Source: Nocardioides flavus (ex Wang et al. 2016) (GTDB lineage: Bacteria; Actinomycetota; Actinomycetes; Propionibacteriales; Nocardioidaceae). Taken from it: a stretch of DNA of 64,000 bases. The stretch covers positions 186,001 to 250,000 of the forward strand of contig NZ_BNAD01000005.1 of assembly GCF_014653115.1 (NCBI RefSeq). Reading direction: 5' to 3'. Positions 41,971 through 62,685 of this stretch are shown here, piece after piece; the first letter of the stretch is position 1, and each line of letters starts with the position of its first letter. The notes below the pieces were generated by a model. That model ran no database searches and had not been told where the DNA came from. It saw only the letters and a program-made list of their open reading frames with translations. The translations under genes and the position numbers were made by a program.

Positions 41971-41976
41971 GACCTC

Positions 41977-41982
41977 AGTCTG
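41977..41982 (-). promoter_or_regulatory. -10 box (CAGACT), leaderless
   Basis: CAGACT plus six bases precedes ATG 41970. It argues against the GTG at 41988, which lies upstream of the box. Confidence 0.4.
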
Positions 41983-42047
41983 GGTCACGGGCCGCCGTCG
42001 CGACCCGACCGGGATTGCCGTGTGCTCCGGGGGGCGCGGGTCGGGCC

Positions 42048-42956
42048 TCAGCGCGTCGCGACCGTCCGCACGGACGCTGCGACGGCGCGCGCCCCGACCC
42101 CCATCACGACGGTGTAGTGGTTCACCGCGTCGAGACGCTCGAGCCGGAGGCGCGGACGTCGCCGGCGCAGGTCGGCGACGACCTCGGCACCGTAGAGCGG
42201 CGGAGCCTCACCGGTCATGCCGTGCTCGGCCACGAGGAGCGTGGCCGGGGTGTCGAGCACCTCCTGCGCCCGTGCGACGTCGGCTCCGACGAGCAGGTCG
42301 CGCGAGTCGGCGTCCACGGCCTCACGTACGGTGCGCGACGCGAGCGCGGGCTCCGAGCCGCAGAGGTCGGAGTCGGCGTACGCCTCCATGCGGGGACCCC
42401 ACTCCCCCGCCAGCGCGGGATGCGCCCGCCACAGTGCACGGTGTGCCTCGTGGTCCTCGAACCGCATGTCGAGCCGACGCAGCGACGGTCCGATCACTGC
42501 TTCGGCGACCTCCTCCGGCGACATCGACGGGGGCATCGGCAGCGGTGGCCCACCGTCGACGAGCACGAGGCCGGCGCAGCGATCGGGGTGGCGGTGAGCG
42601 GTCACGAGTGCGACGAACGCACCCATCGAGTGACCCACCAGCACCGCTCGCTCGTGCCCGAGCGCGTCGAGCACCGCCACCAGGTCGTCGGCGTGCGTCG
42701 CCATCCCCCACGGCCCCGGCAGCTCCCGCGAGCGTCCTCGGCCGCGCAGGTCCGGAGCGACCACCTCCCGTGCGGGCAGCTCGTCAGCCAGCCACCCCCA
42801 GGAGAGGTGGTGCGCGGTGACGCCGTGCACGGCGAGCACCGGAGGGTCCGGCACCTGGGTGGTCCCGCTCGCGGCGAGGGACGGGTCGCCGGACCACCGA
42901 CCGACGTGGAGAAGCCCGCCGCGGACCGGGACGGTGACCGCGCCGTAGCGACTCAC
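42048..42956 (-). CDS. Alpha/beta hydrolase
   Basis: A 302-residue hydrolase: oxyanion region VLAVHGVTAHHLSWGW, nucleophile LVGHSMGAF, and the catalytic His in VNHYTVVMG. Last gene of the Liv-type operon, coupled by a GTGA overlap to the SDR gene. It may hydrolyse a thioester or ester intermediate of the pathway. Confidence 0.88.
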   Translation of the reverse strand: MSRYGAVTVPVRGGLLHVGRWSGDPSLAASGTTQVPDPPVLAVHGVTAHHLSWGWLADELPAREVVAPDLRGRGRSRELPGPWGMATHADDLVAVLDALGHERAVLVGHSMGAFVALVTAHRHPDRCAGLVLVDGGPPLPMPPSMSPEEVAEAVIGPSLRRLDMRFEDHEAHRALWRAHPALAGEWGPRMEAYADSDLCGSEPALASRTVREAVDADSRDLLVGADVARAQEVLDTPATLLVAEHGMTGEAPPLYGAEVVADLRRRRPRLRLERLDAVNHYTVVMGVGARAVAASVRTVATR

Positions 42957-43801
42957 GACGAGAGCAGGGCGACCTGGTCGGCCAGCGAGGCGGGCTCGGT
43001 CCAGGGCTCCAGCGCGCGCAGGCCCTCCTCGGTCGCGGCGAGCTCCTCCACGGTCGGCACCTCGTCGAAGACCACCCCCGGTCCCTCCACGACGGCCACC
43101 CGGGCGTACCGACCACCCGCCACGGACCAGATGCTGCCGGTCTGGGTGCAGTCGGGGTCGGCGAGCCAGGCCACGAGCGGCGAGACCCACGCGGGGTCGA
43201 GCCGAGCCAGCACGTCCTCGGGCAGGACGTCCTCCGTCATGGCCGAGCGCGCCAGCGGCGCGATCGCGTTGACCCGTACGCCGGCACGCGCGCCCTCGAG
43301 CGCGAGGGTGCGGGTCAGCCCGACGAGCCCCATCTTGGCGGCCGAGTAGTTGGCCTGCCCGAAGTTGCCGTAGAGGCCGGAGCCCGACGACGTCATCACG
43401 ACGCTGCCGCCCCCCTCCTGCAGGTGCGGCCACGCAGCCATGGTGACGTGGAAGGCGCCGAGCAGGTGCACGGCGAGGACGTCCTCGACCATGTCGGTCG
43501 TCATCTTGGCGAACGACTTGTCGCGCAGGATCCCGGCGTTGTTGACCACCACGTCGAGCCGCCCGAACTCCTCGAGGGCCGCTGCGACGATGCGGTCACC
43601 GCCGTCGCGGGTGTCGACGCCGCAGGTCACGCCGACGGCACGACCGCCGGCTGCGCGGACCTCCTCGACGACCGGTCCGGGGTCGGCGACGTCGTTGACG
43701 ACCACGGCGGTGCCGCGCGCGGCCAGCGCCAGCGCGTGGCTGCGTCCCAAGGCGCCTCCGGCGCCCGTCACGACCGCCACCCTCGACTCGTGCGAGCTCA
43801 T
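42953..43801 (-). CDS. Short-chain dehydrogenase/reductase (hydroxyacyl-CoA dehydrogenase-like)
   Basis: A 282-residue SDR: VVTGAGGALGRSHALALAARG, NNAGILRDKSFAKMT, MTSSGSGLYGNFGQANYSAAK with Ser and Y-x3-K. The NNAGILRDKSF stretch is typical of the 3-hydroxyacyl-CoA dehydrogenase module of MFE-2-like enzymes. Coupled to both neighbours by 4-bp overlaps; probable beta-oxidation-type step. Confidence 0.9.
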   Translation of the reverse strand: MSSHESRVAVVTGAGGALGRSHALALAARGTAVVVNDVADPGPVVEEVRAAGGRAVGVTCGVDTRDGGDRIVAAALEEFGRLDVVVNNAGILRDKSFAKMTTDMVEDVLAVHLLGAFHVTMAAWPHLQEGGGSVVMTSSGSGLYGNFGQANYSAAKMGLVGLTRTLALEGARAGVRVNAIAPLARSAMTEDVLPEDVLARLDPAWVSPLVAWLADPDCTQTGSIWSVAGGRYARVAVVEGPGVVFDEVPTVEELAATEEGLRALEPWTEPASLADQVALLSS

Positions 43802-44817
43802 GCGTTCTCCTCTCCCCAGCGCACGACGGTCGCGGCCCAGGTGTATCCGGTGCCCGCGGCGAGCGCGAGCACGTGGTCTCCGTCGCGCACGTCGCCGGCG
43901 GCGACGGCGCGGTCCAGCGCGAGCATGGGGTCGACACCGCTCATGTGACCGGTGTCGTCGAGGTAGGACGCCCGGTCGGCGGGGATCCCGAGCGCGTCGA
44001 CCAGCTCGTCGTGCATCGACCGCTTCATGTGGATCCCGCAGAGGTGCGACACGTCGGCGAGGCTGATCCCGGAGCGCTTGCACGCGACCTCGGCCGCGCG
44101 CACGAAGTTGGGCAACGACACCGGGTCGAGGCGCGCCTTCATGTCGGCCGGGTCCTCCACGCTGAGCAGGTGCCGGCGCTCACGGACCGTCTGCTCGCTG
44201 GCCGGCTCCACGCTGCCGCCCGCCGGGACCTTGACGTGGCGGCTGAAGGAGCCGTCGGTGATCATGTGGCTGCCGAGCACCTCGTTGCGACCGAGACCGC
44301 GCTCGAGCACGGCAGCCGCCGCACCGTCGCCGAAGTTGTAGGTGAAGCGCGAGCCGGGGTCGTCGTAGTCGACCAGGTAGGACTCCCGGCACGCGGCCAC
44401 GAGCAGGACACGGCGCAGCTCGTCCTCGGCCAGCAGCATGTCGCGAGCCACCCGCAGTGCCACCGGGGTGCCGCAGGACACGTAGTCGAGCTCGAGGGCG
44501 AAGGCCTCCGTGCACCCGAGGCGGTCCGCGACCCGCGGGGCGACCTGCCAGACCGCGTGGTCCTTCCAGGTCGAGCCGTAGTAGACGACGGCGTCCACCT
44601 CGCGCGGCTCCAGCCCCGCCGCGTCGAGCGCTCGCTGACCGGCCGAGACGGCCATGTCGCTGACGTGCTCGTCGGGGGCGGCCACGTGCTTGCCGCGGAC
44701 GCCGAACTTCTCCGCGACCACGGCTTCCGGGATGCCGCTGGCGAGACCGATCTCGCGGGCCGCCATCCACCGCTCGGGCAGGTAGTGCGCGGTGGCTGCG
44801 ATGCCGACCGTCCTCAT
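43798..44817 (-). CDS. KASIII-like (3-oxoacyl-ACP synthase III family) protein with altered active site
   Basis: A 339-residue thiolase-fold enzyme: Cys115 in DYVSCGTPVAL, His263 in LCGIHMKRSMH. Where FabH has Asn in GNTSAAS, this protein reads TGHMSGVD with His291. The family does decarboxylating or non-decarboxylating Claisen chemistry. The catabolic neighbours (SDR, acyl-CoA genes, Liv transporter) argue against fatty acid synthesis. Its role may be C-C bond cleavage or formation on a CoA ester. ATGA overlaps on both sides. Confidence 0.85.
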   Translation of the reverse strand: MRTVGIAATAHYLPERWMAAREIGLASGIPEAVVAEKFGVRGKHVAAPDEHVSDMAVSAGQRALDAAGLEPREVDAVVYYGSTWKDHAVWQVAPRVADRLGCTEAFALELDYVSCGTPVALRVARDMLLAEDELRRVLLVAACRESYLVDYDDPGSRFTYNFGDGAAAAVLERGLGRNEVLGSHMITDGSFSRHVKVPAGGSVEPASEQTVRERRHLLSVEDPADMKARLDPVSLPNFVRAAEVACKRSGISLADVSHLCGIHMKRSMHDELVDALGIPADRASYLDDTGHMSGVDPMLALDRAVAAGDVRDGDHVLALAAGTGYTWAATVVRWGEENA

Positions 44818-45452
44818 GCGTCTCCCCTGGTCGCCAGTCCACGCTCGACGAAGCCCATCACCTGGTCGAACACGTCGTCGGGCACCGTGTCGGACTCGCC
44901 CCACAGCACCCAGCGGGCGCCGACCATCTCGCCGATGGCCATCAGGATCCACGACACGACCTCGGGATCGGCCTCGCCGATCTCCCCCGCCGCCATGGCC
45001 GTACGAAGCCCCTCGACGTAGCCGATCGAGATCCGCTCGTAGTGCTCGCGCAGGATGTCGGGCGCCACGATCTCGGCCTGCCGGATGATCCGGTAGAGGG
45101 CGGGGTGCTCCGCGACGAACTCGAAGTAGCCGCGGAAGCCGAGGCGCTCGCGCTCCGCGCGGGTGGAGCCCTGGTCCGAGCGCTCCCTCATCGCGTGGCG
45201 CACGCGCCGGTTGAGGTCGCGCACGAGCTCGTCGAAGACTTGCTGCTTGCTCTCGAAGTAGAGGTAGAACGTGCCTTGGGCGACCTTGGCGGCCTCGGTG
45301 ATCTTCACGATCGACGCGTCGTGGTAGCCGTGCTCGGCGAACACGGCCTCCGCCGCCTCGAGCAGTGCCGTACGCGTACGCACGCCGCGGTTCGTCAGTG
45401 CCCGGCCGCCGGCACCGCTGGGTGCCGGGTCCACGTCCCAGGTGGTGCTCAT
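44814..45452 (-). CDS. TetR/AcrR-family regulator within the Liv operon
   Basis: A 212-residue TetR protein: HTH ASIVKITEAAKVAQGTFYLYFESKQQVFDELV and a helical ligand domain. Cotranscribed with the transporter and catabolic genes (ATGA overlaps), so it is the best candidate to bind the operator shared by the promoters at 50344 and 56067, with a pathway acyl-CoA as ligand. Confidence 0.9.
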   Translation of the reverse strand: MSTTWDVDPAPSGAGGRALTNRGVRTRTALLEAAEAVFAEHGYHDASIVKITEAAKVAQGTFYLYFESKQQVFDELVRDLNRRVRHAMRERSDQGSTRAERERLGFRGYFEFVAEHPALYRIIRQAEIVAPDILREHYERISIGYVEGLRTAMAAGEIGEADPEVVSWILMAIGEMVGARWVLWGESDTVPDDVFDQVMGFVERGLATRGDA

Positions 45453-46639
45453 CGTGCCGCTCCTTCGTGCTCGTGACGGGCGCCGTCGTGCGCGGCCCCG
45501 GTGGCGGCCTGGTCGGGCTGCTGGACCGTCCCTGTCCTTGATCCTCCCGCGACTGCGGTCGCGACGTCGCCCCCGCCACGCCCGGTCCGTGCGGGGCGCA
45601 CGCGGGACACGAGGCCCGCCACTCCTCCGGGCACGAAGAGCACGACGATGACGAACAGCACCCCGAGGGCGAACAGCGGCTCGGACAGCGGCACCCGTAC
45701 GACGGCCGGCAGGTCCTGCATGCTCGGAGAGGTGGCGAGCTCGGCGAGCCGGTGGTCGAGGTAGGTGTAGAGCATGCCGCCCACGAGCGCACCCCAGAGC
45801 CGACCGGCACCGCCGAGCACGACCATCACGAGCAGCGTGAGGGTGAAGGTGGAGGTGGTGACCCGCGGGTTCGCTCCCCCGACGACCAGCACGTAGACCA
45901 CCCCGCACGCGGTGGCGAGGAACGAGGCGAGGACGAGGACGGTGAGCTTGTAGCGGTAGGGCGACAGCCCGAGGACCTCCACGCGCCGCTCGTTCTCGCG
46001 GATCGCCTGCCAGACCCGGCCCGCGGGCGACCTAGTGGCGACGTGGGCCACGACGTACACCACGACGACGAGCGCGAGGGCCAGCCAGTAGACGTTGCGG
46101 GTGTTGACGATCCCGACGAACGCCTCGGGCACCTCGCGGAAGGGCAGCGAGCGGCCGAGCTCACCGCCGGTGACGTCGAGCGGGTCGCGCACCACGAAGA
46201 TCGCACCCGCCTGGGCGAAGGCCAGGGTCACCATCGCGAAGGCGATGTCCTTGACGCGCAGGCACACCGCGCCCACCACGAGCGGGAGCACCAGCCCGGC
46301 CACCAGCACGAGCAGGACACCGGAGCCGAAGCCGAGACCCAGCTCGGAGGTCACGACCACCGTCCCGTACACGCCGAGCGCGAAGTAGAGGGCGTGGCCG
46401 AAGGACAGAAGGCCGGTGAAGCCGAAGAGCAGGTCGTAGGTCAGCGCCAGGGCGCCGAAGACCAGCATCAGCGCGAGCAGGTGCAGCACGCCCGGGCTGT
46501 CGAGCGCGCCGTCGAACACGAACGGCACCTCGCGGTTGAGGAACGGGATCGCCACGGCGAGCCCGAGCAGGGCGACGACGACGACCCGGCGCACGTGCGC
46601 GGCGGTCGTGCCGGTCCCGGTGGTGTGGCGCTCGGTCAT
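45449..46639 (-). CDS. livM: Branched-chain amino acid-type ABC transporter permease LivM
   Basis: A 396-residue permease with about ten helices and the LivM signature YDLLFGFTGLLSFGHALYFALGVY. The C-terminal ~45 residues are a polar His/Gly/Ala-rich tail not usual for the family. ATGA overlap with livH. In this context the substrate is probably the carboxylate degraded by the linked genes rather than leucine. Confidence 0.93.
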   Translation of the reverse strand: MTERHTTGTGTTAAHVRRVVVVALLGLAVAIPFLNREVPFVFDGALDSPGVLHLLALMLVFGALALTYDLLFGFTGLLSFGHALYFALGVYGTVVVTSELGLGFGSGVLLVLVAGLVLPLVVGAVCLRVKDIAFAMVTLAFAQAGAIFVVRDPLDVTGGELGRSLPFREVPEAFVGIVNTRNVYWLALALVVVVYVVAHVATRSPAGRVWQAIRENERRVEVLGLSPYRYKLTVLVLASFLATACGVVYVLVVGGANPRVTTSTFTLTLLVMVVLGGAGRLWGALVGGMLYTYLDHRLAELATSPSMQDLPAVVRVPLSEPLFALGVLFVIVVLFVPGGVAGLVSRVRPARTGRGGGDVATAVAGGSRTGTVQQPDQAATGAAHDGARHEHEGAAR

Positions 46640-47520
46640 GCGACCCTCCCCAGGAGGCCTTGCGGACGGACCAGGAGCACGACGGCGAGCATCGCGACGA
46701 CGATGAGGTCGCCCATGCCGACCGCTCCGTAGTAGTTGGCGTACTGCTGGAGCAACCCGACCGCCAGCGCAGCGAGCGCCGAGCCGGGGATCGAGCCCAG
46801 GCCACCGATGATGACCACGATGAAGGCGAAGATCAGCAGGCTCGTGCCCTGCTCGGCGGTGATCGTGCCGAAGAAGGCGCCGGTGAGGATGCCTGCGAGC
46901 GAGGCCAGCGCACCACCGATCGCGAAGACCAGGGTGAAGGCCCGGCCGACGTCGATGCCGAGCGCCGAGACCATGTCGCGGTTCTCGACGCCGGCCCGGA
47001 TGACCAGGCCGTAGCGCGTGCGCCGCAGGAAGAACATCAGGCCGGCGAAGACCAGGGCAGCTGTCACGATCACGACCAGGCGCGAGTTGGGGACCGCGGC
47101 CCCGCCGATGCGGGTCACCTCGTTCATCCAGTCCGGCACGACGACGCGGACCGGGTCCGAGCCGAAGACCGCACGGGCGAGGGCGGTGACGGCCAGCAGC
47201 AGGCCGACCGTCAGCAGGACCTGCCCGACGTGGTCGCCGTAGAGCCGTCGGACCAGGCCGAGCTCCATCAGGACCGCGACGAGCGTGCCGACCACGAGAC
47301 CTGCCAGCAGCGCGACGACGAAGACGACCCCGACCGGCAGCACCCCGGTGAGCTCGGTCCCCACCAGCCACGACGCGTAGGCGCCGACTGTCAGGAAGGC
47401 GGCGTGGGCGAAGTTGAGCACGTCCATCAAGCCGTAGATCAGCGACAGCCCCGACGCCACCAAGAAGTAGAGGCCGGCCAGACCGAGACCGGTGACCGTG
47501 AGGAGCAGGAAGGTCGTCAT
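46636..47520 (-). CDS. livH: Branched-chain amino acid-type ABC transporter permease LivH
   Basis: A 294-residue permease, eight helices, with SLIYGLMDVLNFAHAAFLTVGAYASW, the LivH hallmark. Forms the membrane channel with LivM. ATGA overlap with livF. Confidence 0.95.
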   Translation of the reverse strand: MTTFLLLTVTGLGLAGLYFLVASGLSLIYGLMDVLNFAHAAFLTVGAYASWLVGTELTGVLPVGVVFVVALLAGLVVGTLVAVLMELGLVRRLYGDHVGQVLLTVGLLLAVTALARAVFGSDPVRVVVPDWMNEVTRIGGAAVPNSRLVVIVTAALVFAGLMFFLRRTRYGLVIRAGVENRDMVSALGIDVGRAFTLVFAIGGALASLAGILTGAFFGTITAEQGTSLLIFAFIVVIIGGLGSIPGSALAALAVGLLQQYANYYGAVGMGDLIVVAMLAVVLLVRPQGLLGRVA

Positions 47521-48293
47521 CGGTGCGCACCCCCGTGGTGCACGCCGAGCAGCTCCTGGGTGAGCGCCTCGTCCTCGAAGAACTCCGGCGCCGACCCCTC
47601 GTGGACCACCCGGCCCTGGTCGAGCACGACGACGCGGCGAGCCATGTGGCGGATCACCGCGAGGTTCTGCTCCACCACGACCGTGGTGACGAGCTGCGCC
47701 ATCTGCTCCAGGGCCACCGCGACCTCACGGACCAGGTTGGGCGCGAGACCCTGGCTGGGCTCGTCGATGAGCAGGAGCCGGTTGTCGTCGTTGAGCAACG
47801 CGCGAGCCAGGGCGAGCATCTGCTGCTCGCCGCCCGACATCGATCCCGCGCGCTGGCCACGACGCTCCTTCAGCCGCGGGAACAGCTCGTGCACGAGGTC
47901 GTAGCGGTGCCCGGCTCCGGGACGCTCGGCGAGACGCAGGTTCTCCGCGACGGTCAGGCCGGCGAAGACGTCCCGGTTCTCCGGGACGTAGCCCACGCCA
48001 CGGCGTACGACGTCGTGCGTCGTCGAACCCGACACGTCCTGTCCGTCGAGGTCGATCGAGCCGCGCCGTTCGACCAGGCCGAGGATGCTGCGCAGGGTCG
48101 TGGTCTTGCCGGCGCCGTTGCGGCCCAGCAGTGCGGTGATCTGACCTGCAGGGACGGTGAAGCCCACGCCGTGCAGGATGTGCGACTCGCCGATGAAGGC
48201 GTCGACGCCGTCGAGTCGCAGGATCGGCGTGGCGGCATCCGGCGGGTCGTTCTCCGGCGCAGTGGGGACCCGGTGGTCCGGTCGAGTGGTCAC
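47517..48293 (-). CDS. livF: ABC transporter ATP-binding protein LivF
   Basis: A 258-residue ATPase: Walker A LLGRNGAGKTTTLRS, signature SMSGGEQQMLALARALL, Walker B LLLIDEPSQGLAP. The N-terminal ~25 residues are a Pro/Asp-rich extension. GTG 48293 overlaps the livG stop. Confidence 0.95.
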   Translation of the reverse strand: MTTRPDHRVPTAPENDPPDAATPILRLDGVDAFIGESHILHGVGFTVPAGQITALLGRNGAGKTTTLRSILGLVERRGSIDLDGQDVSGSTTHDVVRRGVGYVPENRDVFAGLTVAENLRLAERPGAGHRYDLVHELFPRLKERRGQRAGSMSGGEQQMLALARALLNDDNRLLLIDEPSQGLAPNLVREVAVALEQMAQLVTTVVVEQNLAVIRHMARRVVVLDQGRVVHEGSAPEFFEDEALTQELLGVHHGGAHR

Positions 48294-49093
48294 AGGGGTT
48301 CTCCCAGGTAGGCGGTCTGCACCGTCGGATCGGCCATGACGGTGTCGGGCTCGTCGCAGGCGAGCAGCGACCCGTGGTGCATGACGGCGATGCGGTCGGC
48401 GAGGCCGAGGATCAGGTCCATGCGGTGCTCGACCATGACGATCGTCGTGCCCCGGGCGTGGATCCGTCCGATGAGGTCGATGACGGGCGGCAGGTCGTCG
48501 GCACCCATACCGGCGGTGGGCTCGTCGAGGAGCAGGACGCGTGGCTCGCCGGCGATCGCGATCGCCAGGTCGAGCTTGCGCTTGTTGCCGTGCGAGAGGT
48601 TGGCGGCCGTCTCCGTCGCCCGGTCCGCCAGGCCCACCGTCTCCAGCGCCTCCTCGGCGCGACGCACCGCCTCGTCGCCGCGCCCGATGCGTCCGAGCAG
48701 CCGTGCCGATCCGCCGAGGTGGGCCCGGGCGGCGAGGCGTACGTTCTCCAGGACGCTCAGGTGCGTGAAGAGGCTGGTCACCTGGAAGCTGCGGGCCATG
48801 CCGCGCCTCGCGCGCTGGGCGGGCGTGAGGCGGGTGACGTCGTCCCCGGCGAGCTCGATGCTGCCCGACGTCGGCCGGTAGAGGCCGGTGAGGAGGTTGA
48901 ACAGCGTCGTCTTGCCGGCACCGTTGGGCCCGATCACCGCGAGGAACTCGCCCTGCCGGACGTCGAGGTCGACGTCGGAGACGATGCGGACCCCGCCCAC
49001 GGCGAAGCCGAGCCCGGAGGTCCGCATCACCGGGCGGCCCGCGGGGGCCGGCACGGCCGGCCCCCGCAGGTCGTGCGTGTCGACGCTGCTCAT
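48290..49093 (-). CDS. livG: ABC transporter ATP-binding protein LivG
   Basis: A 267-residue ATPase: Walker A IGPNGAGKTTLFNLLTGLY, LSHGNKRKLDLAIAIA signature and LLLDEPTAGMG. RBS TGAGGA upstream; ATG 49093 has the better spacing, and GTG 49096 is one codon longer. The start is 11 bp from the binding-protein stop. Confidence 0.94.
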   Translation of the reverse strand: MSSVDTHDLRGPAVPAPAGRPVMRTSGLGFAVGGVRIVSDVDLDVRQGEFLAVIGPNGAGKTTLFNLLTGLYRPTSGSIELAGDDVTRLTPAQRARRGMARSFQVTSLFTHLSVLENVRLAARAHLGGSARLLGRIGRGDEAVRRAEEALETVGLADRATETAANLSHGNKRKLDLAIAIAGEPRVLLLDEPTAGMGADDLPPVIDLIGRIHARGTTIVMVEHRMDLILGLADRIAVMHHGSLLACDEPDTVMADPTVQTAYLGEPL

Positions 49094-49104
49094 CACTCGT
49101 GTCC

Positions 49105-50313: not shown

Positions 50314-50329
50314 GTCATCCTCCTCGGGA

Positions 50330-50346
50330 CCTCTCAACCTGAGAGG
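50330..50346. repeat. Palindrome in the 5' leader of the binding-protein gene
   Basis: CCTCTCA (50330-50336) and TGAGAGG (50340-50346) form a 7-bp hairpin just upstream of the RBS. It may act on translation or be a second operator. The enoyl-CoA hydratase leader does not share it. Confidence 0.5.
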
Positions 50347-50397
50347 TGGTTCATGTCTCATACTTGAGGTCGTACGCGGCTGTGTCAAGCGTCACAG
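50344..50397 (-). promoter_or_regulatory. Promoter/operator of the Liv operon, shared with 56067-56120
   Basis: Minus-strand -35 TTGACA (50388-50383), 17-bp spacer, -10 AAGTAT (50365-50360). Downstream lies the 18-bp AGGTGGTTCATGTCTCAT (plus-strand reading, 50344-50361), identical to the one at 56067-56084. Upstream TGTGTCAAGCGTCACA overlaps the -35 and is also conserved. Confidence 0.75.
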
Positions 50398-50427
50398 CGA
50401 GATTGGCCGCCCGGTCGCGGCCCGGGG

Positions 50428-50841
50428 CTAGGGCGCCGTGATGCCGCCGGCGAGCACGAGGGCCTCGCCCTCGGCGATGACGTCCCCGCCCTCGCCGCGG
50501 CAGGTGGTGACGAGGTAGACCAGGCGCTTGTCCGGCACCACCCGGACGACCTCGACGACAGCTTCCAGCGCCTCCCCCGCGCGAGCTGCCCGCCGCGGTC
50601 GGAGCACCTGCTTGAGGTAGTTGGTGCCCGGGCCGGGCAGGTGCACCCCGAGCAGCGTGGAGAACAGGCCGGCCACCAGCGGCTCGGGGACCTCCGAGCC
50701 GCAGACGTCGCCGCACAGCTGCTCGTGGGCGGCGAGGTCGTCGCGCGTGAAGGTCCGGCGGACGGCATGGGTGCGCCCGACCGCGTCGTCCCACCAGGAC
50801 CGTACGTCCGGGGTCGACCCGGGCGTCGCGTCCGCGCTCAT
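50428..50841 (-). CDS. MaoC-like / FAS1-type dehydratase N-terminal half protein
   Basis: A 137-residue hot-dog-fold protein (WWDDAVGRTHAVRRTFTRDDLAAHEQLCGDV, TLLGVHLPGPGTNYLKQVL) without the catalytic D-x4-H pair. With the next protein, which has it, it would form a two-subunit R-specific enoyl-CoA hydratase or hydroxyacyl dehydratase. ATGA overlap with that gene. Last gene of the second operon. Confidence 0.82.
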   Translation of the reverse strand: MSADATPGSTPDVRSWWDDAVGRTHAVRRTFTRDDLAAHEQLCGDVCGSEVPEPLVAGLFSTLLGVHLPGPGTNYLKQVLRPRRAARAGEALEAVVEVVRVVPDKRLVYLVTTCRGEGGDVIAEGEALVLAGGITAP

Positions 50842-51221
50842 CGCGCCGCCTCCAGCACGCACTCGCCGGTGAGACCGACCGTCCCGTCCTCGTGCACCAC
50901 GCGGGTGCTCCAACGCTCGCGCCCGGTCTCGCCCGCCTGTGGCTCGAGCACCACCCGCACCCGCGCCCCCACGGGCGTGGGGGCGGGGAACATCAGCCGC
51001 TGCTCCACCAGGCGCGCCTGCGGTCGGATCCGACGCAGCTCGGCCCGTACGAGCGAGAAGAGGAACATCCCGTGGGCCACGGGCAGCGCGAACGCGGTGG
51101 TGGCGGCGTAGTCGGGGTCGACATGGATGGGGTTGTCGTCACCGGAGATCGCGGCGAAGCCGTCGAGGTGGGCCTGGGTGACGTCGAGCGCCGGCGACTC
51201 GTGCCACTCCGTGCCGCTCAC
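50838..51221 (-). CDS. MaoC-family (R)-enoyl-CoA hydratase
   Basis: A 127-residue hot-dog hydratase with the catalytic motif SGDDNPIHVDPDYAAT and VAHGMFLFSLV (Asp and His of hydratase 2). It adds water to a trans-2-enoyl-CoA. GTG 51221 overlaps the ligase stop by 4 bp. Confidence 0.9.
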   Translation of the reverse strand: MSGTEWHESPALDVTQAHLDGFAAISGDDNPIHVDPDYAATTAFALPVAHGMFLFSLVRAELRRIRPQARLVEQRLMFPAPTPVGARVRVVLEPQAGETGRERWSTRVVHEDGTVGLTGECVLEAAR

Positions 51222-52732
51222 GACCCCACCCGCTCCGCGCGCAGGACGTGCTTGAGCACCTTGCCGGTCGCCCCGCGCGGCAGCTCGTGGACGACCTCGA
51301 CCGCGGCGGGCACCTTGTAGCCGGCGAGGTGCGCGCGGCAGTGCCGGCGTACGTCCTCTCCGTCGAGCCGGACGCCCGGCTCCACCTCGACCAGGGCACG
51401 GCCCACCTCACCCCAGCGCTCGTCGGGGACCCCGATCACCGCGGCCGACCGCACGCCCGGCAGCCGGAGCAGCACGGCCTCGACTTCGGCGGGATAGACG
51501 TTCTCCCCGCCGGAGATGTACATGTCCTTGACCCGGTCGACGACGTAGTAGAACCCGTCCTCGTCCTGGCGGCCGACGTCGCCGCTGCGCAGCCAGCCCC
51601 CGACGAAGGCGGCCTCGGTCGCCGCGTCGTTGCGCCAGTAGCCCGGCGTGATCCCCGGCCCGCGGAACCAGAGCTCTCCCGACTCCCCCGGCGCGACATC
51701 GCGCCCCTCGGTGTCGACGAGACGTACGTCGACGAAGGGCTGCGGCTTGCCGACCGAGCCGGCCTTGCTGATCGCGTGCTCCTCGTCGAGCAGGAAGACG
51801 GTGGGACCGGTCTCGGTCATGCCCATGCCTTGCCGCACCTGCACGCCGGCCGCGTCGAGCCGTTCGAGGAGCGGCACCGGCATCGCCGCGCCGCCCGCCG
51901 ACCACGAGCGGACACCTGAGAGGTCCGCACCGGCGAAGTCAGGGTGCTCCACGAGCATCTGATAGATCGTCGGGACCCCGAAGAACACGGTCACGCGGTC
52001 CTGGAGCAGGCGCAGCGTCTGCGCCGGGTCGAAGCCCGAGGGGATGACCGCCGTTCCACCGACGAACAGCATCGGCAGGACGTAGAGGTTCCAGCCGCCG
52101 GTGTGGAACTGCGGCAGCACGGAGAGGAACACGTCGTCGGAGGTGATGCCGGCGGCCATGCCGATGTTGAGGTGGTTGACCAGCGCCATGCCGGCGGTCT
52201 GCTCGACGCCCTTCGGCTTCCCGGTCGTGCCCGAGGTGTAGAGCAGGTACCACAGGGCGTCCTCCCCGCGCGGCTCGTGCACGAGCGGAGCCGGGTCCGC
52301 GTCTGCGAGCCGCGCCTCGAAGCCGTCGTCGAGGTCGAGCAGGCGGATGCCGCCACGTGCTCCCGGGACGTTGCGCGTCAGCGCGTGGGCGACCTCGGCG
52401 TGGGCGGCGTCGTGGGCCAGCGCTACGACGTCGGCGTCGACGAGGATGAACTCGAGCTCCGCGGGGGCCAGGCGCCAGTTCAGCGGGACCAGGACGGCGC
52501 CCAGCTTCGCGCAGGCGAAGAGCAGCTCGACCGCCTCGACGCGGTTGTGGGCGAGCGTGGCGACGCGGTCCCCGGCTCGCACGGACCACTCGTCCTGCAG
52601 GAGCCGGGCCAGGCGGCCGGCGCGCGACTCGAGCTCGCCGTAGGTCACCGACCGGTCCCGGTCGGGGTCGACCAGCGCCACCCGGTCGGGGTGGAGCGAG
52701 GCGCGCTTGGCGGTCAGGTCGGGCAGCTGCAT
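51218..52732 (-). CDS. Acyl-CoA synthetase (AMP-forming)
   Basis: A 504-residue ANL-superfamily ligase: P-loop LLYTSGTTGKPKG, MGMTETGPT, GELWFRGPGITPGYW, SGDVGRQDEDGF and catalytic Lys in PRGATGKVLKH. It activates the imported acid to its CoA ester. ATG 52732 (GTG 52735 also possible), 12 bp after the NHL gene stop. Confidence 0.93.
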   Translation of the reverse strand: MQLPDLTAKRASLHPDRVALVDPDRDRSVTYGELESRAGRLARLLQDEWSVRAGDRVATLAHNRVEAVELLFACAKLGAVLVPLNWRLAPAELEFILVDADVVALAHDAAHAEVAHALTRNVPGARGGIRLLDLDDGFEARLADADPAPLVHEPRGEDALWYLLYTSGTTGKPKGVEQTAGMALVNHLNIGMAAGITSDDVFLSVLPQFHTGGWNLYVLPMLFVGGTAVIPSGFDPAQTLRLLQDRVTVFFGVPTIYQMLVEHPDFAGADLSGVRSWSAGGAAMPVPLLERLDAAGVQVRQGMGMTETGPTVFLLDEEHAISKAGSVGKPQPFVDVRLVDTEGRDVAPGESGELWFRGPGITPGYWRNDAATEAAFVGGWLRSGDVGRQDEDGFYYVVDRVKDMYISGGENVYPAEVEAVLLRLPGVRSAAVIGVPDERWGEVGRALVEVEPGVRLDGEDVRRHCRAHLAGYKVPAAVEVVHELPRGATGKVLKHVLRAERVGS

Positions 52733-52744
52733 CACGGGGTCCGT

Positions 52745-55240
52745 TCAGGGTGCGGGCGTCATCGACGCCGTGGTGAACCGGGTGACCCGGTTGCTGATGA
52801 GCGAGTCGGTGAAGATCCGGCCCGTGGAGGAGAAGAGGACGTGCTGGGGGGCGAAGAGACCGCCGTCCAGCGTGCCGAGCGACGGGTCGAGCCAGTAGCC
52901 CTCGAAGGCGGGTCGGATCTGGCCCGAGGCGTCCGGGGCGAGCCCGGCCGGGCTGGAGTACCTGCGCACCACGAAGTTGAAGCCGTCGCCGACGAGCAGC
53001 TTCCCGGAGGCGGGGTCCAGGTCGATCCCGTGGGGCAGGAAGAACTTGTCCGCCGTGATGGTGTCGGGGTGGTCGTAGGTGCCGCCGCCGGCTCCGATCC
53101 GGCCGACGTACGCGCCGGTGTCGGCGCGGAACACGTTGATGCGCTGGTTGCGACGGTCCACGGCGTACACGCGGCCGCCGCCCGCGGCGACGTCCTGGAC
53201 CTGGTCGAAGGTGCCGCTCGCGCCCTGGCCGAAGAAGTTCGGACCGTAGTTCCAGTCGGTCTGGTGGTCCTGCCCCTTGCTCGCGTCGCGACCGCCGGCG
53301 ACCCAGTCGGTCGTGAGCGTGGCGTTGACCCGGTCGTAGGTGAAGCGCCAGAGGTGGTCCGACGAGGTCGTGACGAACACGCCGAGGCGCGACGACGTCT
53401 CCGCGACGACGTCGATCGCGGTCGGCAGGTTGCCGTCGAGGAAGGAGATCGCCGGCTGGGGACGTCCGCCGGTGCGGTAGGTCAGGTTGAAGGTGGTCGC
53501 CAGCGAGCCGCTGCCGGTGTAGAGCCGCAGCGAGGTGTCCGCGACGTAGGGCCACGGCAGCGTCGCGTCCGAGGCGACCAGGGCGGCGACCCGACGGTCG
53601 TCGCCTCCGGCGCCGGTCCGGAACGTGGCCAGTCCGGTGACGCCCCACATCAGCTGCGACCCGGTGAAGCTGCCGAGGCGGGCGCCGTCGGTGGAGTACT
53701 GCTCGATGACCGAGTTGGGGGTGTCGCTGACGAGGATCGTGGCGGGCTGGGTGCCCTGGGCGGGCAGCTCGACGAGGGCCGAGGCGTAGTGCAGCTGGCC
53801 GGGCAGCTCGCGCGGGTGGCCCCAGAACTCGTGGTCGGTCGCCGTGCCGACCCCGTCCGAGACGGAGCAGCGCAGGATGGTGCCGCCCGAGGGGCCTTCC
53901 CAGCACTTCTTGATGCGGTGGTTGCCGGTGTCGCTCACGAGCACGACGGGGGCGTCGTCGTAGAACGTGCCCCAGGCGACCACGTCCTCGGTGACGCGCG
54001 TGCCGTCGGGGCGCAGCAGCGGCACCGCGTCGTTGGGCAGCTGCATGCTCTCGTCCTCGAGACCGGCCGTGGCGGGCGTGCGCATGTCCACCTGGTGCAG
54101 ACCGAGCTTGCCGTAGGCCCACCTCGCGACGGCATCGGCTGACTTCGAGGTCCTGTAGGAGGGCGCGACGCCACTGCCCGCCAGGTTGTCGAAGCGCAGG
54201 ATCCGGCCACCGTAGGTGTCGGCCACGAACAGGTTGCCCTGCGTGTCCACCCGTACGCCTCGCGGTCGCTTGAGGTGCTCGACGCTGCCGCTCGCGGTGA
54301 AGCGACCGAGGATGTCGAGCAGCGTGAGGGTGCCGTTGGTCGCGACCTCGAAGAGCTTGATCCGGTTGTTCCCGTTGTCGGTGACGTAGAGGAATGTCCG
54401 GGTGCCGGTGCGGTACCAGGTCTGGCCCTGGGGGATGCGGAAGCCACTGACCTTCGCCGGGCTGCCGGCGTAGTCGTCGTACGACGTGGAGTCGGTGCCC
54501 CAGTCCTTGTCCTCCCCCGGGAGCACAGGACCGGCGCCGACGTGGCGTCCGGTGGCGTCCGTCGCCCCGACGGTGGTCACGAGGGAGGCCTGCCACGTGG
54601 CCGGGTCGAGGCGGAAGCCCTTGATCCGGTTGTTGAACTCGTCGGAGACGTAGAGCAGGCCCTGCGGCAGGACGGTGAGGTTGCGCGGCAGGGTCAGGTC
54701 CTGCCCGCCGCCGTTGCCCTTCTGCCCGATCGACGTCACGTAGCGGAAGGCATCCGGGTTCGCCGGGTCGGTGCGGAAGAAGTGGATGCGGTGGGTGCCG
54801 ACGTCGTTGACGTAGAGACCGGCCAGCCGGTCGTCGTCGGCCTCGGTCTTGGAGAGGAAGGCGATGCCGAGCGGCGCGGTGATCACCGGGACGCTGCCGT
54901 GCGGGCTGGCCGGGTCGAGGCTGGCGCCGTCGGACTCCAGGGCTCCGACCTGACGACCGTCGAGGTCGAGCACCCGCACGACGTGGTTGCCCACGTCGGC
55001 GACGTAGACGCGGGCCGCCGACGGCGCCCCCGTCATCGTGTCACGGTCGTAGGTCACGGTCGTGGGGCTGGAGAACTGGTAGCGCTGGCGCGGCACCTCG
55101 CCGGTGAGCGACGAGGACCGATCCTCGTCGGCGAAGGCCACGACGCCTGCCGGGGGTGCCGGGTCGGCGACCGCGACGGTCCCCAGCGATCCGACCGTGA
55201 GGAGGGCGGCTCCCGCCGCTGCCACTGCCCTGCGCTTCAT
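52745..55240 (-). CDS. Exported NHL/beta-propeller repeat protein
   Basis: An 831-residue secreted protein: signal peptide MKRRAVAAAGAALLTVGSLG with cleavage near AVA-DP. At least eight NHL-like blades follow (VYVADVGNHVVRVLDLDG, LYVSDEFNNRIKGFRL, LYVTDNGNNRIKLFEV, LFVADTYGGRILRF, VLVSDTGNHRIKKCW, VYAVDRRNQRINVF, LLVGDGFNFVVRRY). It may bind a ligand or polymer at the surface, or act as a lyase or hydrolase. ATGA coupling to the enoyl-CoA hydratase gene is unusual for an exported protein. Confidence 0.88.
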   Translation of the reverse strand: MKRRAVAAAGAALLTVGSLGTVAVADPAPPAGVVAFADEDRSSSLTGEVPRQRYQFSSPTTVTYDRDTMTGAPSAARVYVADVGNHVVRVLDLDGRQVGALESDGASLDPASPHGSVPVITAPLGIAFLSKTEADDDRLAGLYVNDVGTHRIHFFRTDPANPDAFRYVTSIGQKGNGGGQDLTLPRNLTVLPQGLLYVSDEFNNRIKGFRLDPATWQASLVTTVGATDATGRHVGAGPVLPGEDKDWGTDSTSYDDYAGSPAKVSGFRIPQGQTWYRTGTRTFLYVTDNGNNRIKLFEVATNGTLTLLDILGRFTASGSVEHLKRPRGVRVDTQGNLFVADTYGGRILRFDNLAGSGVAPSYRTSKSADAVARWAYGKLGLHQVDMRTPATAGLEDESMQLPNDAVPLLRPDGTRVTEDVVAWGTFYDDAPVVLVSDTGNHRIKKCWEGPSGGTILRCSVSDGVGTATDHEFWGHPRELPGQLHYASALVELPAQGTQPATILVSDTPNSVIEQYSTDGARLGSFTGSQLMWGVTGLATFRTGAGGDDRRVAALVASDATLPWPYVADTSLRLYTGSGSLATTFNLTYRTGGRPQPAISFLDGNLPTAIDVVAETSSRLGVFVTTSSDHLWRFTYDRVNATLTTDWVAGGRDASKGQDHQTDWNYGPNFFGQGASGTFDQVQDVAAGGGRVYAVDRRNQRINVFRADTGAYVGRIGAGGGTYDHPDTITADKFFLPHGIDLDPASGKLLVGDGFNFVVRRYSSPAGLAPDASGQIRPAFEGYWLDPSLGTLDGGLFAPQHVLFSSTGRIFTDSLISNRVTRFTTASMTPAP

Positions 55241-56037
55241 GCCTGCTCCTGTGCTCGGTGGCCGAGGAAGGCCTGCATGCCCGCCCGCGCCTCGTCGGTG
55301 CCGATCTGTGCCACGAACTCCTCGAGCTCGGCGTCGAGCCCTCGGCGTACGTCGTCGAGGTCGCTGCGCATCAGGCGCTTGGTGCGCGTCACAGCCCCCG
55401 GCACCATCCGCGCCAGGTCGCGCGCCACCTCGAGGGCACGGGCCCGTGGATCGTCGGCCGTCTCGTCGACCAGCCCCCACTGCGCAGCGAGGTCGACCTC
55501 GACCGTGCGGTTGGTGAGCTGCCAGGTCGCGGCACGGGCATGGCCGACGCGACGCGGCAGCAGGGCGGTCCATCCGCCGTCGGGCGAGAACCCGACCCGG
55601 ACGTACCACGGCGCGAAGCTCGCCCGGGGACCGGCGACGACGACGTCGGCGGCCAGCACGAGACCGAGCGACCCACCGGTCACGGGACCCTGCACGGCGA
55701 CGACCAGCGGGACGTCGAGCGCGAGGAGGTCGAGCACCGCCTCGTGGAGGACGCCGACGATGCGCCGGGCGTACGTCTCGAGCTCCGTGCCCTCGCGGGA
55801 GGCGAAGGCAGCGACGTCACCGCCGGTGGAGAAGCTGGGTCCGTCCGCCGACAGCACCACGGCGCGCACTCCGGGGTCGGCCGCTACCGTGGCGACCTCC
55901 GTGCGCAGCTGCTCGAGCAGCTCCGGGACGAGTGCGTTGTGGCGTTCGGCGCGCGAGAGCGTGAGGACCGCGACGCCCTCGTGCGACTGTCGGCGGACGA
56001 GGTCATGCCGACCGGGCGCCGAGACGGGTTGTGGCAA
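55237..56037 (-). CDS. Enoyl-CoA hydratase/isomerase family protein
   Basis: A 266-residue crotonase: oxyanion loop AVVLSADGPSFSTGGDVAAF and QGPVTGGSLGLVLAADVVVAG; the second active-site region reads GFSPDGGWTALLPRRVG, with Asp in place of the classic Glu region, as in many isomerase-like members. TTG 56037 is the only suitable start, with GGAAGG eight bases upstream. First gene of the second catabolic operon. Confidence 0.88.
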   Translation of the reverse strand: MPQPVSAPGRHDLVRRQSHEGVAVLTLSRAERHNALVPELLEQLRTEVATVAADPGVRAVVLSADGPSFSTGGDVAAFASREGTELETYARRIVGVLHEAVLDLLALDVPLVVAVQGPVTGGSLGLVLAADVVVAGPRASFAPWYVRVGFSPDGGWTALLPRRVGHARAATWQLTNRTVEVDLAAQWGLVDETADDPRARALEVARDLARMVPGAVTRTKRLMRSDLDDVRRGLDAELEEFVAQIGTDEARAGMQAFLGHRAQEQA

Positions 56038-56066
56038 CGGAGCGCCTTCCGAGATCAGAACATGAC

Positions 56067-56120
56067 AGGTGGTTCATGTCTCATTCTGTGAGTGCGCCGA
56101 CCCTGTGTCAAGAGTCACAC
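56067..56120 (-). promoter_or_regulatory. Promoter/operator of the enoyl-CoA hydratase operon
   Basis: -35 TTGACA (56111-56106), 17-bp spacer, -10 CAGAAT (56088-56083). The same 18-bp element as the Liv promoter occupies the same position (56067-56084), and TGTGTCAAGAGTCACA overlaps the -35. The promoter reaches into the end of the upstream MFS gene. Confidence 0.75.
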
Positions 56121-57416
56121 GACGTCGGGCCGGTGACGGGTCTCGTACATGCGCACCGCCACGACGAGGCCCGACACGGCGGTCAGCGCGGCGACGGTCC
56201 AGACAGCGGCAGGGACGCCGAGGGCATCGGCGACGATGCCGGCCAGCAGCGCCCCGACGGCGAACCCGCCGTCGCGCCACAGCCGGTAGACGCCCACCGC
56301 GCGAGCCCGCCAGGCCGGGTGCGCCACGTCGCCGATCGAGGCGAGCAGCGTGGGGTAGACCATCGCGGTCCCCGCCCCGAGGAGCACCGCGGCGACGGCC
56401 CACAGGGAGAACGACTCGGCGAGCGCGATCAGCGCGAGGGCCACGGCCTGCAGCCACATCCCGCCGGCGATGAGCCACTTGCGGCCCCACCGGTCGGACA
56501 GCGCCCCGGTGACGAGCTGGCCGGCTCCCCACACGGCCGGGTAGAGGGCGGCCAGGACACCGATCTCGCCGATCGACAGCCCGGCAGCGGCGAACAGGAT
56601 CGGGAACAGGCCCCACGCGAGCCCGTCGTTGAGGTTGTTGACCAGACCGGCCTGGCTGGCCGAGGAGAGGGCCGGCTCCTTGAAGCTGGTCTGCACGAAC
56701 ACCTGGCCGTTGGTGAGCTCGCCGTGGAGGTGGTCGTGCTTGCCGTCGGCCCGCGCCACGTGCCCCGTCGCCTCGAGGCGGGCGTGCTCGCGGGTCTCCT
56801 CGACCACCAGGGCCGACAGGCCGAGACCGAGTGCGGCGAAGGCGATGCCGAGGAAGAACGGTTCCGGGCGCAAGCCGTACGCCTCCGCGACGTAGCCGGT
56901 GGCCAGCGCGGTCGCCGCGACCGCGGCATAGCCGGCGGCCTCGTTCAGGCCCATCGCCAGTCCTCGCCGGTCAGGGCCGACCAGGTCGATCTTCATCACC
57001 ACCGTGGTGGACCAGGTCAGGCCCTGGCTCACGCCGAGGAGCACGTTGGCGACGATGATCCAGGTCCACGACGGCGCCCAGATGAGCATCAACGGCACCG
57101 GGACGGCGACCAGCCAGCCCGCCACCAGCACCGGCTTGCGGCCGAACCGGTCCGACCACGTGCCGGCGAAGTAGTTGGTCGCGGCCTTGGAGATGCCGAA
57201 GACCAGGATGAAGCTCAGCCCCGCGGTGTAGGCGGTGATGCCGAACTCCTCCGCGCCCAGCAGCGGGAGCACGGTCCTCTCCTGGCCCAGCATGCCGCCG
57301 ACGAGGGCGTTGACGACGACCAGCAGTGTGAACTGCGCGGCGTTCTGGCGCAGCCCGAGCTCGACGCGGCGAGGCGTGCCGCCGGGCCGGGGCTCGGCGT
57401 TCGACCGGTCACCCAT
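56115..57416 (-). CDS. MFS transporter
   Basis: A 433-residue major facilitator with 12 helices and the GTWSDRFGRKPVLVAGW motif between helices 2 and 3, repeated as GALSDRWGRKWLIAGG in the second half; a His-rich central loop (HARLEATGHVARADGKHDHLH) may bind metal. RBS GGAGG before ATG 57416. It may export or import a pathway compound. It precedes the conserved promoter. Confidence 0.9.
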   Translation of the reverse strand: MGDRSNAEPRPGGTPRRVELGLRQNAAQFTLLVVVNALVGGMLGQERTVLPLLGAEEFGITAYTAGLSFILVFGISKAATNYFAGTWSDRFGRKPVLVAGWLVAVPVPLMLIWAPSWTWIIVANVLLGVSQGLTWSTTVVMKIDLVGPDRRGLAMGLNEAAGYAAVAATALATGYVAEAYGLRPEPFFLGIAFAALGLGLSALVVEETREHARLEATGHVARADGKHDHLHGELTNGQVFVQTSFKEPALSSASQAGLVNNLNDGLAWGLFPILFAAAGLSIGEIGVLAALYPAVWGAGQLVTGALSDRWGRKWLIAGGMWLQAVALALIALAESFSLWAVAAVLLGAGTAMVYPTLLASIGDVAHPAWRARAVGVYRLWRDGGFAVGALLAGIVADALGVPAAVWTVAALTAVSGLVVAVRMYETRHRPDVV

Positions 57417-57461
57417 GGCGCCACCTCCGGAGGACGGGTGCTCGACCGCCCGTGGCGCGGA

Positions 57462-61133: not shown

Positions 61134-61142
61134 CGTCGTCCA

Positions 61143-61166
61143 TTCACTCAGTTACGTTTGAGTCAA
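61143..61166. promoter_or_regulatory. ArsR operator (inverted repeat)
   Basis: TTCACTCA (61143-61150), 8 bp, TGAGTCAA (61159-61166): 7 of 8 paired bases. On the minus strand the outer arm is TTGACT, a -35-like sequence for the fusion gene at 61133. Confidence 0.55.
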
Positions 61167-61217
61167 CCATGACTGAGACATCGGGTGGGGCGCAACTCAT
61201 CGGCCCAGCCCACCGCC

Positions 61218-62390: not shown

Positions 62391-62406
62391 CCCACCGGCG
62401 TCCGGG

Positions 62407-62619: not shown

Positions 62620-62644
62620 CGGGCGTGGCGGGCGCGCACATGCG

Positions 62645-62673
62645 AAAAACCCTCACAGTCAGACTGTGAGGGT
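62645..62673 (-). terminator. Rho-independent terminator of the initiator tRNA
   Basis: ACCCTCACAGTC (62649-62660) and GACTGTGAGGGT (62662-62673) form a perfect 12-bp stem. On the minus strand it is followed by a T-run (62649-62645). Confidence 0.8.
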
Positions 62674-62685
62674 CTTTCGGATTTG

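Follow-up and report, generated by a model that had tools for sequence, protein, structure and literature searches.

A predicted TetR-controlled regulon for carboxylic-acid uptake and CoA-dependent breakdown in Nocardioides flavus, with a KASIII-fold enzyme of altered active site

Introduction

Enzymes of the beta-ketoacyl-acyl carrier protein (ACP) synthase III (KASIII) type are known from biosynthesis. What, then, might one of them do in an operon with genes for an importer and a hydrolase, next to a second operon with a ligase that makes thioesters of coenzyme A (CoA)? This question is raised by a stretch of 64,000 nucleotides from Nocardioides flavus (contig NZ_BNAD01000005.1, positions 186,001 to 250,000), hereafter the window, in which two operons, A and B, lie on the minus strand between positions 42048 and 57416. 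A reading of the sequence without database searches (the sequence-only reading) had taken them for one system of uptake and acyl-CoA degradation. Following it up, we moderately favor the view that the locus is a TetR-controlled regulon for the uptake of a carboxylic acid and its CoA-dependent breakdown, including a retro-Claisen step by the KAS-like enzyme. The parts of this view differ in strength: we are highly confident that operons A and B form one predicted TetR regulon and that it contains a conserved core; a catabolic acyl-CoA role of the island is very probable; and the retro-Claisen role of the KAS-like enzyme is a tentative proposal made from sequence comparison.

A predicted operator shared by two operons

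Operon A comprises, in order, genes for a crotonase, an NHL-repeat protein, an AMP (adenosine monophosphate)-forming ligase, a MaoC hydratase and a small MaoC-like partner. Operon B comprises a substrate-binding protein (SBP), LivG, LivF, LivH, LivM, a TetR regulator, the KASIII-like enzyme, a short-chain dehydrogenase (SDR) and an alpha/beta-hydrolase, which ends at 42048. With the start codons chosen here, 10 of the 12 junctions within the operons are 4-base overlaps, the remaining ones being gaps of 9 bases between the ligase and NHL genes and 8 bases between the SBP and LivG genes.

Upstream of operon A, promoter A (56083..56111, minus strand) consists of a -35 box TTGACA (56111-56106), a 17-base spacer and a -10 box CAGAAT (56088-56083); it is the single match of a promoter scan within 41900-57600, where shuffled sequences average 0.2 matches. 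The final base of its -10 box is overlapped by a predicted operator of 21 bp, operator A (56063..56083, minus strand; TGAGACATGAACCACCTGTCA). The same 21-bp predicted operator recurs before operon B as operator B (50340..50360, minus strand; TGAGACATGAACCACCTCTCA), adjoining promoter B (50360..50388, minus strand), with its -35 box TTGACA (50388-50383), 17-base spacer and -10 box AAGTAT (50365-50360). Promoter B was read from the sequence; its -10 box has 3 of the 6 consensus bases and it is absent among the promoter-scan matches. At both operons, TGAGACATGAACCACCTSTCA thus follows immediately after TTGACA, 17 bases and a -10-like box. A search of the whole 4.18-Mb genome with up to 3 mismatches returned 2 sites, both at these promoters, and a reversed control returned 0; the expectation from 100 window shuffles was 0.00. 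As the operator is common to both operons and, at up to 3 mismatches, unique to them in the genome, they can be regarded as one predicted regulon, and the expectation of 0.00, together with the recurrence of the gene set elsewhere (see below), places this set beyond chance.

Conservation of the island in relatives

The nearest relative of the island is found in a metagenome-assembled genome (MAG) of Aeromicrobium, which has the complete gene order of both operons, with the aligned portions 52-81% identical, and operators with 2 mismatches before the SBP gene and 3 mismatches before the crotonase gene. This synteny and the shared operator support the claim of the sequence-only reading that the two operons are one system.

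For a wider comparison, 87 related KAS loci (numbered with an L) were assembled, the window being the 88th. Eighty of these are the best 80 of 334 loci from a scan of a genome collection with a KAS protein alignment, many of them MAG fragments; the other 7 come from a search of the phylum, in which 8 of 396 genomes, the source genome included, passed the cut-off of the NCBIfam model NF005308. A haloarchaeal group of 24 loci was assigned from record titles. Gene calling missed or misread the KAS gene in 10 of the 87 loci (L070, L073, L079, L080, L083, L088, L099, L138, L143 and L153); since the gene calls are imperfect, they were combined with tblastn, and all counts over the 87 neighborhoods are lower bounds.

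Within about 9.5 kb of each of these KAS genes, a CoA ligase was found at 68 or more of the 87 loci, an alpha/beta-hydrolase at 67, Liv components at 63 and a TetR regulator at 53, while 15 loci, all haloarchaeal, have an HTH_10-type regulator. A crotonase was found at 5 loci in addition to the Aeromicrobium contig, a lipase-like gene at 4 and the NHL protein at 1, that of the nearest relative. Where the flanks exceed 8 kb on each side of the KAS gene (42 loci), SDR was seen in 15 and MaoC in 11. These neighborhood counts delineate a core made up of the transporter, the ligase, a hydrolase, the KAS-like enzyme and a regulator, as predicted from gene content, to which crotonase, SDR, MaoC and the NHL protein are additions. 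This core recurs in several bacterial phyla and in haloarchaea.

Two control sets were compared with this association, 29 other KASIII loci from near relatives and 22 KASIII loci of the phylum that fall below the cut-off: a ligase or Liv gene lies within 1.5 kb in 78 of the 87 test loci versus 0 of 29 and 0 of 22 controls, in a comparison whose queries derive from the same loci (self matches by locus removed, near copies kept) and whose controls are actinobacterial, whereas the test set is wider. Within the same 1.5 kb, SDR was found in 1 and 4 of the two control sets and MaoC in 2 and 0, and TetR and hydrolases in none of the 29 and 22. An isocitrate-lyase family gene cluster lies downstream of the KAS gene in 5 loci (2 of the 5 were scanned), which would agree with acetyl-CoA being a product.

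Within the family, taken to be the Nocardioidaceae, to which Aeromicrobium belongs, the island is sporadic, as KAS matches at E 1e-60 occur in 2 of 341 genomes, the second very probably being the Aeromicrobium MAG, with which it shares contig number and KAS coordinates. Among 58 near genomes a good match is present in the source genome only, the best other being 35% identical. The island may have been gained horizontally. A search of plasmids (E 1e-25) returned 13 records: 8 of Halobaculum, 1 of Halomicrococcus and 1 of Salarchaeum at 46-50% identity, and 3 of Streptomyces at 33-34%. The comparison of gene neighborhoods across the family, proposed in the sequence-only reading, thus yielded the Aeromicrobium synteny on the one hand and a sporadic distribution on the other. 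That reading had also held that orthologous blocks never keeping these genes together would speak against it; the core proved to be widely together, but the NHL protein (1 of 87 loci) and the crotonase (5 of 87 and Aeromicrobium) did not.

Three Halovenus loci (L135, L146 and L152) have the KAS gene with a hydrolase and without a nearby ligase or transporter; at L152 it stands amid housekeeping genes, such as those for replication factor C and alanyl-tRNA synthetase.

Recurrence of the operator

The relatives were searched with the two operator sites of the window alone, allowing up to 5 mismatches and using shuffled loci as controls. A site was found in 29 of the 53 TetR-bearing loci, as opposed to 17 of 530 shuffles. 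The other loci without TetR have a site in 1 of 10 (shuffles 2 of 100), and the haloarchaeal loci, where a homologue of the window TetR was not found, in 0 of 24 (shuffles 14 of 240). Of the 30 sites, 23 either overlap the called start of a gene for an SBP, TetR, hydrolase or ligase or precede such a gene by no more than 400 bases. Adding the two window sites and the second one of Aeromicrobium brings the total to 33, with the near-palindromic consensus T-G-A-S-A-N-N-T-G-A-N-T-C-A-C-C-T-S-T-C-A. When this pattern was searched with one mismatch in 30 whole genomes, it matched in 13, at a single place in each, and controls gave 0. By contig-range arithmetic, 12 of the 13 matches fall inside the KAS locus; the thirteenth, in the genome of L079, falls outside it, upstream of an SBP gene whose product is 58% identical to that of the window. 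At L090 and L145 (Streptosporangiaceae) and L094 and L125 (Thermomonosporaceae), the operator stands between a lipase-like gene, whose product has a signal-peptide-like start, and a hydrolase-TetR-ligase-KAS run. The predicted operator motif is kept across bacterial phyla.

A KASIII fold with altered catalytic residues

The KAS-like protein (43798..44817, minus strand) has the Pfam domains ACP_syn_III and ACP_syn_III_C and matches NF005308 (PRK06840) with 425.2 bits (424.9 in the genome search), above the curated cut-off of 315; against the FabH model TIGR00747 it scores 128.1 bits, below the cut-off of 292.1. Its AlphaFold2 model (mean predicted local distance difference test score 95.9) has a KASIII fold over the whole chain, with a best Z of 42.2 and, for the best 31 entries, Z of 40-42 and root-mean-square deviations of 1.8-2.3 over 307-327 aligned residues. 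The top Foldseek matches are BioZ and FabH, with which it shares the fold over its whole length at about 25% identity, while having Ser114 and His291 instead of the FabH Cys and Asn.

In an alignment of all 88 proteins, the column of the FabH Cys is occupied by Ser in 47 proteins and by Cys in the other 41, and that of the FabH Asn holds His in all 87 proteins covering the position. His263 is found in 84 of 88, and Lys265 and Ser267 in 87 of 88 each, the remaining one being a gap. The cut-off of TIGR00747 and the lack of a Cys-His-Asn triad rule out a plain FabH. In a maximum-likelihood tree (87 rows, midpoint root, nucleophile column included), the 47 Ser proteins form one clade with support of 99/97, comprising Actinomycetota, two of the three Chloroflexota, one member each of Armatimonadota and Sysuimicrobiota, and the ungrouped rows of the window and the phylum search; the 23 haloarchaeal rows form another. 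The partial KAS of L146 was omitted from this tree and from alignment A3 (59 of the 80 loci). As all the Ser proteins fall in a single supported clade, the nucleophile would have changed once on this tree.

No relationship to thiolases was detected: the KAS frame has no match to Pfam Thiolase_N or Thiolase_C at E 0.001, and it is absent from the 10 Thiolase_N matches of the source genome, none of which lies inside the window. Pfam scans likewise found no thiolase domain among the proteins of both operons. NF005308 itself is named "3-oxoacyl-ACP synthase", a FabH-type name, and the plasmid features under the KAS match bear either this name or that of beta-ketoacyl-ACP synthase III; yet the members aligned here are without the FabH Asn and stand mostly beside ligase, hydrolase and transporter genes.

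A divergent NF005308 member of 34% identity and without His263 is encoded at L071 (genome G361, 5699-12311), where it is flanked by two ligases with TetR adjacent; an acyl-CoA dehydrogenase gene is divergent across an operator-like site with 5 mismatches. This is possibly a second type of pathway with the same regulator family.

Regulator, transporter, ligase and hydrolases

The TetR regulator, encoded within operon B (44814..45452, minus strand; TetR_N 55.2 bits in a longer frame), has as its nearest PDB entries 6el2/6en8 (118 bits over residues 20-188, the next scoring 50 bits); against the NCBIfam model of the Bacillus FadR it reaches 57.6 bits, with a cut-off of 200. Entry 6el2 is FadRSa of Sulfolobus acidocaldarius, which is reported to leave DNA on binding of fatty acyl-CoA and to act as a local repressor of a 30-kb cluster for lipases and beta-oxidation (PMC6449355). 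The cluster resembles the present one in pairing a local TetR repressor with lipase or esterase and acyl-CoA genes; the operons here differ in being centered on a Liv transporter, one ligase and the KAS-like enzyme, and in having an operator predicted from sequence alone.

The Liv/HAAT-type ATP-binding cassette (ABC) transporter is complete, with all components above the Pfam cut-offs: the SBP (49105..50313; Peripla_BP_6, 202.7 bits), which by eye has a lipoprotein-like start, the ATPases LivG (48290..49096; ABC_tran and BCA_ABC_TP_C) and LivF (47517..48293; ABC_tran), and the permeases LivH (46636..47520; BPD_transp_2, 125.9 bits) and LivM (45449..46639; BPD_transp_2, 107.4 bits in the longer frame 45449-47530), all on the minus strand. 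The SBP scores 58 bits against the NCBIfam leucine and urea models, far under their cut-offs of 477 and 493, so a branched-chain amino acid ligand is not implied. No ligand is named for its nearest PDB entries, 3n0x/3nnd, from which we draw no conclusion on the substrate. CouPSTU of Rhodopseudomonas palustris likewise imports an acid through an ABC transporter with a binding protein, beside genes for CoA-dependent degradation, but has a MarR regulator and a route other than beta-oxidation (PMC3610893). The coumarate-binding CouP entries given there, 4JB0 and 4JB2, are absent among the 28 PDB matches of the SBP at E 0.001.

The AMP-forming acyl-CoA ligase (51218..52735, minus strand; AMP-binding 305.9 bits) is nearest in the PDB to 8weu/8wev (383 bits, the next scoring 294), one entry being named feruloyl-CoA synthetase. 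It scores 471.5 bits against general acyl-CoA ligase models and 316.5 bits against malonyl-CoA synthase models, whose cut-off is 558; PDB entry 4fuq gives 224 bits. The alpha/beta-hydrolase (42048..42956, minus strand; Abhydrolase_1 87.4 bits in a longer frame) stays below cut-off for all 25 NCBIfam families among the matches listed. One c7-type hydrolase that was scanned is PcaD-like (144-153 bits, below cut-off). The lipase-like proteins score 26.3 bits (L090) and 19.3 bits (L094) against Pfam Lipase_2 (cut-off 20.3), and a PDB search with one of them gave matches to small bacterial lipases but not to a polyhydroxyalkanoate (PHA) depolymerase.

Remaining genes and surroundings

Open reading frames, Pfam and NCBIfam matches recover every gene that the sequence-only reading had named between 42048 and 57416, all on the minus strand; one of them, for a major facilitator superfamily (MFS) carrier, drops out of the system. 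The MFS gene (56115-57416) has its stop 3 bases short of the -35 box of promoter A and therefore lies upstream of the promoter and outside operon A. Moreover, it has no homologue around the 87 related KAS genes (tblastn, E 1e-8) and no match in the syntenic stretch of the Aeromicrobium contig (E 1e-6), and it was rejected as a member.

The crotonase, of the enoyl-CoA hydratase family (55237..56037; ECH_1 127.7 bits), has an Aeromicrobium counterpart in the same place with 57% identity. The SDR (42953..43801; adh_short 149.9 bits in a longer frame) is FabG-like. Of the "split MaoC" of the sequence-only reading, one half is a MaoC-type hydratase by Pfam (50838..51221; MaoC_dehydratas 70.3 bits); the other, a small protein (50428..50841), has no Pfam match at E 0.001 and weak, sub-threshold MaoC-like similarity (NF006045 58.5 bits, cut-off 282), and is a probable partner half with an Aeromicrobium counterpart of 55% identity. 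All of these are encoded on the minus strand.

The NHL-repeat beta-propeller protein (831 amino acids; 52745..55240, minus strand; NHL 73.9 bits) has an N-terminus that by eye is signal-peptide-like. A step outside the cell had been ascribed to it as probable; that this step is essential is not supported, as among 196 genomes of the order the protein is found in its own genome only (E 1e-40). Its Aeromicrobium homologue is 64% identical. It is a local accessory. At L085 (2-2251), two genes for products with signal-peptide-like starts are divergent from the operator-bearing SBP gene; one of them, cut by the contig end, has an SGL beta-propeller match of 21.7 bits (cut-off 26.3) and is a possible parallel to the NHL protein.

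On the near side of operon B, positions 41065-41988 combine HTH_18 and DinB_2 domains in a single reading frame. Further upstream of the MFS gene, 59156-62726 holds a group that we take to be arsenic-resistance-like: an aquaporin-family protein, an ArsR-type helix-turn-helix and low-molecular-weight phosphatase domain in one frame, an FMO-like flavoprotein and, at 59156-59632, a small protein.

Discussion

How might these parts act together? In the favored scenario, the Liv-type ABC transporter would import a carboxylic acid, alpha/beta-hydrolases may free it from an ester or lactone, and the AMP-forming ligase would convert it to the acyl-CoA. This acyl-CoA would probably release TetR from the operator, an inducer suggested by the similarity of the regulator to FadR of Sulfolobus. 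In the source genome, the MaoC pair, crotonase and SDR could turn an acyl-CoA that is unsaturated or has a 3-hydroxy group into its beta-keto form, steps that would be optional in relatives. The KASIII-fold enzyme would form an acyl-enzyme on Ser114, where other lineages have Cys, aided by His263 and His291, and probably cleave the beta-keto thioester by a retro-Claisen reaction in the stead of a thiolase. This cleavage is favored because neither operon was found to contain a thiolase gene. The ligase, the Liv transporter, the MaoC, SDR and crotonase proteins and the likeness of TetR to the Sulfolobus FadR uphold the role in uptake and acyl-CoA metabolism given by the sequence-only reading; its "full path" is not supported, the steps being predictions and many related clusters being without SDR, MaoC and crotonase.

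Several observations weigh against this scenario. SDR and MaoC, found near at least 29 and 28 of the 87 related KAS genes, are outside the core, and even among the 42 loci with ample flanks a Liv gene was not seen in 10 and a ligase in 7. No operator site with up to 5 mismatches was found in 24 of the 53 TetR-bearing loci, and the consensus pattern has no match at one mismatch in 17 of the 30 genomes. Further, operator, neighborhood and control counts are not independent because there are near copies among the loci (L072 and L108 have identical KAS proteins). On the side of the enzyme, the position of the FabH catalytic His is uncertain by one residue, falling on Ile262 or His263, and the source genome has 7 strong Thiolase_N matches elsewhere. 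Finally, at L126 (6136-14612; Bacillota), genes for a sodium:solute symporter, FMN reductase, ligase, KAS, crotonase, thiolase, SDR and 3-hydroxybutyryl-CoA dehydrogenase stand in a row without Liv genes; with a real thiolase and 3-hydroxybutyryl-CoA dehydrogenase beside the KAS-like gene, a simple replacement of thiolase misfits there.

Other functions for the same genes have to be considered alongside. The novelty could be limited to the parts list if an unsaturated acid, for instance a phenylpropenoid of the cinnamate type, is degraded by ordinary beta-oxidation with the KAS-like enzyme as an odd thiolase. The proximity of the ligase to 8weu/8wev (383 versus 294 bits), with its feruloyl-CoA synthetase, points this way, as does the succession of ligase, hydratases, SDR, KAS and hydrolase, which is the reaction order of C2 side-chain shortening; but the SBP lacks the CouP entries 4JB0 and 4JB2 among its 28 PDB matches (PMC3610893), and SDR and MaoC are missing from many related clusters (seen in 15 and 11 of the 42 loci with long flanks). 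We consider this unlikely, though worth some weight. An acyltransferase or acyl-CoA hydrolase in a route of detoxification or salvage, rather than an enzyme of C-C chemistry, seems rather unlikely. DpsC and CerJ are KAS-like acyltransferases, and CerJ and a daunorubicin-doxorubicin polyketide synthase protein are indeed among the PDB sequence matches, in keeping with the Ser nucleophile of 47 of the 88 proteins; these matches are weak, however, at 37 and 57 bits versus 87 for the best FabH, a gene for an acceptor substrate is not evident, and the strictly kept His291 would be left unexplained.

The active site also invites a comparison with decarboxylation. KAS I and II enzymes have a Cys-His-His set, and Ser or Gln variants of ketosynthases decarboxylate. 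The change of Asn to His gives the former set and that of Cys to Ser replaces the condensing nucleophile, such that the KAS-like enzyme could be a decarboxylase of a malonyl-type or beta-carboxy acyl-CoA made by the ligase, and the island would consume a substituted malonate-like acid. The ligase does match malonyl-CoA synthase models (316.5 bits versus 558 for the cut-off; 4fuq 224 bits), but it scores higher on general acyl-CoA ligase models (471.5 bits); the Cys is kept in 41 of the 88 family members in similar gene contexts, and the SDR, MaoC and crotonase of the window would have no obvious use, making this quite unlikely in our view. More improbable by far is an island for (R)-3-hydroxyalkanoate oligomers from polyesters, with a secreted hydrolase, import, an oligomer hydrolase, a ligase, R-specific SDR and MaoC steps and thiolysis by KAS. 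The lipase-like genes with signal-peptide-like starts that flank the operator in 4 loci, the MaoC and FabG-like SDR of the window and the isocitrate-lyase family cluster downstream of KAS in 5 loci, with acetyl-CoA as its fitting product, would agree with it; on the other hand, the lipase-like protein searched in the PDB resembles small bacterial lipases and not a PHA depolymerase, the Lipase_2 scores straddle the cut-off in L090 and L094, and no depolymerase was recognized among the window proteins scanned.

Returning to the regulon for acid uptake and breakdown with a retro-Claisen step, it matches no named pathway in the literature that could be searched in part, as the sequence-only reading had supposed; nor did those sources, in which subscription journals are sparsely covered, hold a description of a regulator-linked island that is built, in two domains of life, around a KASIII-fold enzyme whose catalytic residues are altered. 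A broader proposal, which we hold more loosely than the retro-Claisen role itself, is that a KASIII-fold enzyme with a Cys/Ser-His-His set may have been recruited for C-C cleavage in a catabolic pathway of Actinobacteria, Bacillota, Chloroflexota and haloarchaea, with a single switch from Cys to Ser in one large bacterial clade, the context being kept, and with the bacterial regulator and its palindromic operator kept across phyla.

That a family named as a fatty-acid synthase is found, in several phyla and two domains, next to genes for import, CoA ligation and hydrolysis suggests that misannotation is widespread and that a route of degradation has yet to be described. The shared operator provides a handle on this route: it predicts members of the regulon elsewhere and would let the inducer, and hence the substrate, be sought by a binding screen. 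The switch from Cys to Ser in an otherwise similar setting may serve as a natural experiment on the chemistry of ketosynthases.

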